Shown here piece by piece: positions 53,552 to 55,012 of a stretch of DNA of 64,000 bases (positions are counted from its first letter, which is position 1; every line of letters begins with the position of its first letter). The DNA comes from Acinetobacter harbinensis (GTDB lineage: Bacteria > Pseudomonadota > Gammaproteobacteria > Pseudomonadales > Moraxellaceae). The stretch covers positions 1 to 64,000 of the forward strand of contig NZ_JXBK01000001.1 in assembly GCF_000816495.1 (NCBI RefSeq), in the 5' to 3' direction. Position numbers and translations under genes: made by a program. The notes under the pieces are model-generated. The model worked only from the letters and a program-made list of their open reading frames with translations, searched no databases and was not told the DNA's origin.

Positions 53552-53662
53552 GAAAAATCACTGTTGTTTTTTGTCATTAAGAATCATTGCATTCACGTTA
53601 TTTTTCATTATTCCATAATTTTTTTATGGTTTTCTAAAAGATGTATTTACATTGCCCTATAG

Positions 53663-53690
53663 AAGACGTATTTTGCATATATCTTATAAT
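53663..53690 (+). promoter_or_regulatory. NsrR-like operator overlapping a TATAAT -10
   Basis: The 23-mer at 53663-53685 (AAGACGTATTT-T-GCATATATCTT) matches 18 of 22 defined positions of the NsrR consensus AAGATGYATTT-N-AAATRCATCTT. It abuts the -10 TATAAT (53685-53690). A single half-site AAGATGTATTT also lies at 53638-53648. NO-sensitive repression by the nearby NsrR is the obvious reading. Confidence 0.65.
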
Positions 53691-53709
53691 CACAATTGAC
53701 GTTTTAATT

Positions 53710-54474
53710 ATGACTCCACAACACATTGAACTTGTTAAATCGACCGTCCCTGTCCTACGTGAAAATGGCGTTGCGTTGACCGGTTATTTTTATAATCGTA
53801 TGTTGAATAATAATCCTGAATTAAAAAACATTTTTAACCTTGATCATCAAGCCACAGGTCGTCAGTCACGTGCTTTAGCGGCAGCGGTATTGGCTTATGC
53901 AGAAAATATTGAAAATCCAAGTGTTCTTGCTAAAGCGATTGAGCACATCAGCACCAAACATGTCAGCTTGGACATTCAACCCGATCACTATCCGATTGTT
54001 GGGGACAATCTATTGCACTCCATTAGCGAAGTTTTAAATGTTCCTTTTGAATCTGAATTAATTGCAGCGTGGAAAGAAGCCTATATGCAATTGGCCGCAA
54101 TTTTAATTGGTGCAGAAAAACAAAAATATGCCGGCTTAGCGGCACAAAATGGCGGTTGGGCAGGCTGGCGCACCTTTGAAGTGGCTGCAATTGAAAGCAC
54201 TGAAACAGGTAAACGCTTGAGCTTAAAAGCACAAGATGCACAGCCGATTATGGATGCTGAAGCAGGTAGCTATATTTCAGTTAAAATCCAAGTTCCAGCG
54301 CATGATATTCAGCAACCGCTACAATTTACTTTTGCTAAGCCACAAACTGCCGATCAATATGTTTTTGATGTTAAAGCAGAACCGAATCATACTGAATATT
54401 CAGTGGCCAATATTTTATTGAATAATTATAATGTTGGTGATGTGGTGCAAGTGTCTGCCCCTGTTAAAGGCTAA
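53710..54474 (+). CDS. Globin with truncated flavohaemoglobin reductase domain
   Basis: A 254-residue protein. The N-terminal globin domain (1-about 140) aligns with Hmp throughout: Tyr28 (B10), Gln52 (E7), proximal His84 and Tyr94 correspond to the NO dioxygenase residues. The next 110 residues resemble the FAD-binding domain, but RxYS, whose Arg contacts FAD, is LQFT here. The protein stops at NVGDVVQVSAPVKG, where Hmp continues into its NADH domain. So there is no NAD-binding domain and FAD binding is doubtful. An NsrR-like operator precedes the gene and nsrR follows it, which supports a role in nitric-oxide defence. Confidence 0.82.
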   Translation: MTPQHIELVKSTVPVLRENGVALTGYFYNRMLNNNPELKNIFNLDHQATGRQSRALAAAVLAYAENIENPSVLAKAIEHISTKHVSLDIQPDHYPIVGDNLLHSISEVLNVPFESELIAAWKEAYMQLAAILIGAEKQKYAGLAAQNGGWAGWRTFEVAAIESTETGKRLSLKAQDAQPIMDAEAGSYISVKIQVPAHDIQQPLQFTFAKPQTADQYVFDVKAEPNHTEYSVANILLNNYNVGDVVQVSAPVKG

Positions 54475-54503: not shown

Positions 54504-54532
54504 ATAAAGTCCCTTTTTAGGGACTTTATCTT
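54504..54532 (+). terminator. Intrinsic terminator after globin gene
   Basis: ATAAAGTCCCT-TTTT-AGGGACTTTAT followed by CTTTAT on the plus strand, 29 bp past the stop. It separates the globin gene from nsrR, so nsrR may have its own promoter. Confidence 0.8.
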
Positions 54533-54568: not shown

Positions 54569-55012
54569 ATGCAACTCAATAAATTTACCGATTACGCACT
54601 GCGCCTATTGATCTATGTGTCTAGAGCGCGAGAAACACCGTACACCATTGCAGAGATTGCACGTGATCTACAGGTCTCTCAAAATCATTTGGTTAAAATC
54701 GTGCATTTCACTGCAAAACAAGATTGGGTGATGACTGCACGCGGTAAAGGTGGCGGAATTCGCTTAAACCCTGAAACTTTAAATTTAAATTTAGGGCAAC
54801 TGGTGCGGGTCTTACAAGGCAGCCATCCGATTGTAGAATGTAATACACCGCCCTGTGTACTGCGCAGCAACTGCGGTCTTAAAGGTATTTTAGATCAAGC
54901 ACTTGAACAGTTCTATCAATCTTTAGATCAGTATTGCTTAAGCGAGGTTTTGGCCCAAAGCCGCATCATGCCAGAGCGTAGTCTGTCGGCCATTTCACTG
55001 ATTAATCTTTAA
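54569..55012 (+). CDS. nsrR: Rrf2-family NO-sensing repressor NsrR
   Basis: A 147-residue Rrf2 winged-helix regulator. The recognition-helix region (VSQNHLVKIV, ARGKGGGIRL) is typical. Cys91, Cys96 and Cys102 have the same spacing and numbering as the iron-sulfur cluster ligands of E. coli NsrR, and Asp8, the fourth ligand, is in the FTDYALR block. The cluster reacts with NO and releases DNA. The NsrR-like site upstream of the neighbouring globin gene makes it the likely target. No ribosome site is obvious ahead of the ATG. Confidence 0.85.
   Translation: MQLNKFTDYALRLLIYVSRARETPYTIAEIARDLQVSQNHLVKIVHFTAKQDWVMTARGKGGGIRLNPETLNLNLGQLVRVLQGSHPIVECNTPPCVLRSNCGLKGILDQALEQFYQSLDQYCLSEVLAQSRIMPERSLSAISLINL

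Follow-up and report, generated by a model that had tools for sequence, protein, structure and literature searches.

The Globin Locus and Its Genes

The window, i.e., the whole stretch of 64,000 nucleotides of DNA that was analysed, belongs to a genome of 2.9 Mb, and the relatives at its globin locus are Acinetobacter records. On the forward strand, it carries a short-form flavohaemoglobin gene (53710–54474) that opens with an ATG at 53710 and encodes 254 amino acids followed by a stop codon. The promoter region contains a predicted NsrR-type palindrome (53665–53683, forward strand), matching 12 of the 14 defined positions of the consensus gATGyAT-N5-ATrCATc as printed in an excerpt of PMC1274295, and, directly after it, a TATAAT (53685–53690, forward strand) as candidate −10 element, for which a promoter scan gave no paired −35. 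Downstream on the same strand lie a terminator-like hairpin (54504–54529; three such sites occur in the stretch, with 1.3 expected), which might reduce nsrR expression from a shared promoter, the nsrR gene itself (54569–55012; 147 amino acids, Rrf2 family), assigned by profile matches and cluster ligands, and a GTPase gene (engB).

The reading frame appears to open at 53641, because an upstream ATG happens to be in frame, and the stretch given in the original prediction begins at 53638. The start at 53641 was rejected, given that ATG 53641 lies upstream of both the TATAAT and the palindrome and that the alignments with most relatives begin at the first residue counted from 53710; the numbering of Tyr28, Gln52, His84 and Tyr94 counts from the latter.

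Domain Architecture and Predicted Fold

The encoded protein is composed of a globin domain (residues 1–147; 53710–54150, forward strand) with Tyr28, Gln52, Lys83, His84, Tyr94 and Glu136, scoring 55.8 bits against Pfam Globin (cut-off 22), and a ferredoxin-reductase-type β-barrel (residues 148–254; 54151–54471, forward strand), which is devoid of the RxYS arginine, of the second (Gly/Ser) flavin element and of a subsequent NAD domain. FAD_binding_6 is hit with 12.2 bits, below its cut-off of 21.1, and NCBIfam NF009805 with 269.5 bits versus a cut-off of 432. The RxYS position reads Leu204-Gln-Phe206-Thr, and the C-terminus lies three residues beyond Ala-Pro (250–251); in the alignment, it is after the equivalent Ala-Pro that Thr-Gly-Asn-Phe and the NAD domain come in full-length Acinetobacter Hmp. 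Hence, the original prediction was right in stating that the FAD-binding arginine of RxYS is replaced and that the protein ends before the NAD domain, with the stop at 54474 just ahead of it. The portrayal of the remainder as a “stump” of the reductase domain needs correction, as no part of the barrel is missing and the domain is conserved and, by prediction, well folded. Among the features of Hmp, the heme pocket and the FNR-type barrel are found, and the FAD motif and the NAD-binding domain are absent; with 107 residues beyond the globin fold that constitute a conserved, predicted barrel, the protein is not a single-domain globin.

The AlphaFold2 model of the short form, built from 88 aligned sequences, reached a pLDDT of 93.3 and a pTM of 0.88. 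Its best structural match is E. coli Hmp (1gvh; Z 29.2, rmsd 2.0, 248 residues), and flavohaemoglobins occupy the first six places in the comparison (Foldseek; VIA-align), with single-domain globins coming next.

Spread of the Short Form

A match to the window protein is present in 166 of 175 Acinetobacter genomes. With the open frame and the matches to full-length Hmp as criteria, the 175 genomes were divided into carriers of the short form (82/175), of a long form of about 402 amino acids (86/175, including G156, counted on a fragment at a contig end) and of a third type, H2 (7/175), with 426–428 amino acids and encoded elsewhere in the genome; eight genomes are without any Hmp-type globin. 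Short and long form coexist in two genomes (G145, G146), short form and H2 in six, long form and H2 in none, and in 74 of the 82 short-form genomes no other Hmp-type globin accompanies the short form. The six genomes with short form and H2 include that of the window: its H2 gene (G000:C1:2602680-2604030; L002, L236) encodes a full-length Hmp of 428 amino acids and has its own nsrR paralogue adjoining as well as an NsrR-type site of 13/14; within this gene, the record contains a run of 10 N.

Among named records, the short form occurs in A. nosocomialis, A. pittii, A. calcoaceticus, A. seifertii, A. lwoffii, A. baylyi (L070) and A. gerneri, and also in a strain labelled A. baumannii. Out of 77 distinct short-form proteins fetched, 76 are 252–256 amino acids long; the remaining one (L188, from G119; 220 amino acids) is apparently frameshifted in the barrel, and in G089 one match is interrupted by a stop close to its end. 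No remnant of an NAD domain was detected in the 700 bases downstream of any of the 77 short forms, and the same test was positive in 67/67 long forms. At L185 (G029) and L045 (A. gerneri), the short form is present as a tandem pair (67% and 73% identity to the window protein). A divergent short form (L194, G076) lacks a neighbouring nsrR or engB within the stretch read, and NsrR is located elsewhere in that genome. The short form was also sought outside Acinetobacter in a survey of 199 genomes of the family, 132 of them from other genera by handle: 63 of the 132 genomes matched, 61 with open frames of 399–440 amino acids and two with frames of 170 and 314 amino acids whose globin hits are weak.

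Residues Kept and Lost

For residue comparison, 77 short forms were set against 112 other proteins (67 long forms, 7 H2 and 38 outgroup proteins). Tyr28, Gln52, His84, Tyr94 and Glu136 are found in all 77 short forms and Lys83 (F7) in 76; the NO dioxygenase residues originally named for the window protein (Tyr28, Gln52, His84, Tyr94) are among the invariant ones. The picture is reversed at the Hmp positions taken here as flavin-binding (RxYS, a histidine and the second Gly/Ser element). The RxYS arginine is present in 112/112 of the other proteins vs 0/77 short forms, where it is replaced by Gln (49), Lys (16), His (7), Leu (4) or Glu (1). The tyrosine of this motif is Phe in 73/77; the histidine, again invariant in the 112 others, gives way to Leu or Ile in 73/77, and a deletion removes a glycine of the second flavin element in 75/77. 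The barrel core (Gln202, Pro203, Ser190, Val191) is kept in 76–77 of the 77.

Both domains of the short form are under strong purifying selection, with median dN/dS values of 0.015 (globin) and 0.040 (barrel) over 107 close pairs that are not independent; the corresponding values of the long form are 0.013, 0.026 and, for the NAD domain, 0.051 (87–88 close pairs, likewise not independent). The barrel is thus maintained, somewhat less strictly than in the long form, and the lost flavin residues suggest a role other than that of a standard FAD site. The median net charge of the globin domain is −5 in short and −9 in long forms; this lends no support to a new docking patch, because the full-length Hmps of the outgroup sit at −3.

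One Origin and Repeated Allele Exchange

Short and long forms both reside between metC/herA and nsrR–engB in nearly all loci read, with nsrR downstream of the globin gene at 76/77 distinct short-form and 63/67 distinct long-form loci. Pfam matches on L066 agree with the names of the neighbours: herA gives HerA_C, engB the 50S ribosome-binding GTPase and metC Cys_Met_Meta_PP. In the comparison with other Acinetobacter envisaged by the original prediction, other species carry a full-length Hmp at this locus, before nsrR–engB.

In the globin tree, the short form falls among flavohaemoglobins. The larger tree (76 of the 77 short-form rows, the two L026 copies having shared a name) places all short forms in one clade requiring one change (SH-aLRT 71), and a thinned tree of 60 rows with other Moraxellaceae recovers this clade with a support of 99/94. 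The nearest full-length relatives of the short form are L076 (Alcaligenaceae) and L073 (Neisseriaceae), each a single, long branch. Grouped with the long form are Pasteurellaceae and the full-length Hmps of another genus within the family; the stretches of the latter have matches to nsrR, engB and metC, too. Based on this grouping and the matching neighbours, the full-length form is likely ancestral at the locus.

The flanking genes tell a different story. In the EngB tree (131 of the 144 short- and long-form rows, those with flanking genes in the fetched stretch), the two forms are mixed, with 20 changes, at least 5 of them forced. The NsrR tree, which has few columns and long branches, requires 20 changes for the short and 19 for the long form, at least 7 being forced, and the combined HerA and EngB tree (110 of the 144 rows, 56 short and 54 long, for which flanking genes had been fetched) 18 label changes, at least 11 of them forced on well-supported branches. 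A single short-form clade is rejected by the HerA and EngB flanks with a p-AU of 2.1e-99. This tree conflict shows a single origin of the short form, followed by repeated gain and loss via in-place allele exchange; short and long form are two old alleles swapped in place at one chromosomal spot.

DNA identity in sliding windows was followed in eight short/long pairs, hand-picked from the EngB tree, and the pattern is clearest in two of them. For L011/L126, the flanks are 75–93% identical except for the last window (43%), and identity is 49–65% from base 100 to base 900 of the open reading frame. For L051/L234, flanks of 73–100%, except for 60–68% over the promoter, contrast with 42–68% between bases 100 and 900. 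The contrast is smaller in L013/L235 and L019/L240 and weak in L189/L120 and L187/L131; L030/L121 and L179/L233 align poorly upstream and are uninformative there.

NsrR and the Globin Promoter

With 12/14, the NsrR-type site of the window is weaker than most short-form promoters: 64/77 short-form, 52/67 long-form and 6/7 H2 promoters score 13–14/14, and dinucleotide shuffles reach 12/14 in about 0.1% (short form), 0 (long form) and 0.7% (H2) of cases. An 18/22 match had originally been claimed. Counted by eye over the 23-mer form (53663–53685), it amounts to 17 or 18 of 22, depending on G or R at one position, relative to what we take to be the 23-mer NsrR consensus; the placement of the site next to the TATAAT stands. 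The downstream nsrR with Asp8, Cys91, Cys96 and Cys102 was correctly recognised, and these ligands are invariant in the rows examined, 75 linked to short and 63 to long forms. The window NsrR scores 99.7 bits against the NCBIfam equivalog NF008240, below the cut-off of 182; NF008240 is still its best NCBIfam match by E-value.

At E ≤ 1e-25, NsrR was found in 166/175 genomes. The nine genomes without a match are the eight globin-less ones (G003, G005, G009, G057, G069, G079, G116 and G144; 2.4–2.8 Mb) and G147, which has a long form; at this cut-off, NsrR is present in 166/167 globin-bearing and absent from 8/8 globin-less genomes. This co-loss indicates that NsrR tracks the globin, whichever allele is present.

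Published expression changes fit with the globin gene and nsrR forming one unit, the genes being matched by name in excerpts of the respective papers: in A. lwoffii under baicalin, hmp_1 and nsrR change together (log2 fold 3.08 and 3.07; PMC11103975), and A. baumannii A1S_3085 and A1S_3086 are induced by sulphide (PMC7315123) and fall together in imipenem-selected cells (PMC4192346).

The Question of the Electron Donor

As stated in the original prediction, the absence of the NAD module implies a separate electron donor, if the short form turns over. The FNR-family proteins of the window's genome comprise, besides H2, BenC, two Fpr-like proteins and four others; the two proteins closest to ferredoxin-NADP reductase score below its NCBIfam cut-off. 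Genes for Fpr-like reductases are present in 175/175 genomes, with two or more in 173; this ubiquity shows availability and says nothing on use. A search for a linked reductase matched none of the seven FNR-family reductases of the window's genome at 125 short-form loci (3.3–12 kb, redundant), and the control search matched at 78/78 long-form and H2 loci. Given that the short form has entered many genomic backgrounds without a linked reductase, the donor would most simply be a protein of the core genome. FNR-like proteins have been suggested as donors for reductase-less globins in a passage of the Gardner review (PMC3820574), where Lys F7 is also implicated in single-electron transfer from flavin to heme.

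Comparison with Known Globin Systems

A flavohaemoglobin is usually seen as a self-contained enzyme; here, the electron-supply half is gone and the rest is kept. With Hmp (E. coli 1gvh; R. eutropha FHP 1cqx), the short form shares the globin and barrel, the heme-pocket residues, the NsrR-type site and the adjoining nsrR, but it lacks the NAD domain, the RxYS arginine and the second flavin element, having 254 instead of about 400 amino acids. Campylobacter jejuni Cgb (2wy4), which is NO-regulated via NssR according to a passage of PMC3820574, and Vitreoscilla VHb are likewise globins without a reductase of their own; however, they stop after the globin fold, whereas the short form continues into a conserved barrel and is placed among flavohaemoglobins by the tree. 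The Legionella operon of glbN and a ferredoxin reductase under NsrR, as outlined in excerpts of PMC1274295 and PMC3820574, offers a parallel in that an NsrR-controlled globin has its reductase on a separate protein, but glbN is a truncated-type globin with a linked reductase gene, and none was seen at the 125 short-form loci.

The fold of the short form is, thus, ordinary and its architecture and history are unusual: it is a single-origin, reductase-less Hmp derivative kept as an alternative allele. Acinetobacter papers, matched by name in excerpts, simply refer to such a locus as hmp or flavohaemoprotein (PMC7315123, PMC11103975, PMC4192346). A description of the short Acinetobacter form was not encountered in the literature searched, mostly at the level of titles and the first lines of abstracts, and one may already have been published.

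Proposed Function and Alternatives

The short form is a conserved NAD-less, apparently flavin-less Hmp allele that takes the place of full-length Hmp at the NsrR-linked locus of many Acinetobacter species. Judged by its sequence, it probably acts as an NO dioxygenase under NsrR repression and receives the electrons for its heme from a housekeeping reductase on another protein, for which Fpr is a possibility. In the absence of NO, NsrR would bind the palindrome beside the −10 element and repress the globin gene, as suggested by the site and the linkage. NO damages the iron-sulphur cluster of NsrR, which is established for NsrR elsewhere, and repression would be lifted. The globin, with O2 on its ferrous heme, would then turn NO into nitrate, an activity suggested by the conserved heme pocket, by the mode of regulation and by the interchange with Hmp. 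Re-reduction of the heme would fall to the housekeeping reductase, with Fpr as a candidate, and the barrel may be retained as a folded cover or docking module rather than as a standard flavin site. In the window's genome, the short form need not be the main NO remover, given that a full-length Hmp with its own nsrR is encoded there as well. A further-reaching scenario, which we offer tentatively, is a split flavohaemoglobin: a single event would have stripped an old Hmp of both its flavin and its NAD module, the emptied barrel would have come to dock a housekeeping FNR-family reductase, and the resulting allele would since have competed with full Hmp at one recombining locus throughout the genus, sometimes beside a second complete Hmp.

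Alternatively, the globin might bind NO or O2 without turnover, acting as a sensor, as a buffer for NO or as a carrier that brings O2 to oxidases (cf. the proposal for Vitreoscilla haemoglobin), for which the lack of an own or linked reductase and the rank of single-domain globins directly after flavohaemoglobins in the fold comparison could be adduced. This is rather unlikely in view of the alternation with full Hmp at one locus, the role as sole Hmp-type globin in 74 of the 82 genomes, and the retention of Lys F7 together with the proximal His/Tyr/Glu set. The retained barrel and Lys F7 would also suit a vacated FAD cleft that takes up free reduced or loosely bound flavin, making the protein flavin-dependent without a flavin motif; the loss of flavin-site residues conserved in the long form and the outgroup, some of them to hydrophobic ones (His to Leu, Tyr to Phe), renders this improbable.

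A chief role in sulphide or other redox stress instead of NO is more improbable still. The sulphide induction of A1S_3085–3086, called hmp and nsrR (excerpt of PMC7315123), and the rise of a flavohaemoprotein gene of Acinetobacter Tol 5 on desiccation (excerpt of PMC13130816) speak in its favour, but the induction could stem from damage to the NsrR cluster, the heme pocket and promoter site are of the NO-system type, and both sets of genes are matched to this locus by name. Finally, a decaying pseudogene, an assembly error or a recent frameshift of an ordinary hmp, such as the one near 54474 considered originally, has next to no standing: the missing domain, the frameshifted-looking copy of G119 and the stop in the G089 match would agree with it, but the length is constant in dozens of genomes, dN/dS is 0.015–0.04, the clade is single and no NAD remnant follows in 77/77 cases.

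We retain the NsrR-repressed NO dioxygenase as the preferred reading; the natural interchangeable alleles with and without a reductase make a direct test possible, e.g., in A. baylyi.

Further NsrR-Type Sites

A scan of 12 chosen genomes with a 19-mer, allowing up to two mismatches, gave 19 distinct places (two in the reversed control), 12 at globin or H2 promoters and seven elsewhere; the globin promoter is the only place in 6/12 genomes. The 19-mer was not found at the short-form promoters of G000 and G007 with this tolerance, and no FNR-family reductase matched at the seven non-globin loci (3 kb each). With seven of the 19 places elsewhere, the regulon may include more than the globin, and a donor gene with a weaker site would escape such a scan. 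A search for NnrS matched in 0/175 genomes, with the control query silent as well. At L064 and L156 (G112), the interval separating herA from the globin gene holds another NsrR-like match, on the opposite strand. Three of the seven non-globin places, at L247 (G000), L258 (G108) and L260 (G049), are two-mismatch sites with an OmpW-family gene about 200 bases downstream; by sequence, the regulon may exceed the globin, and the OmpW gene is a possible candidate for a further member.
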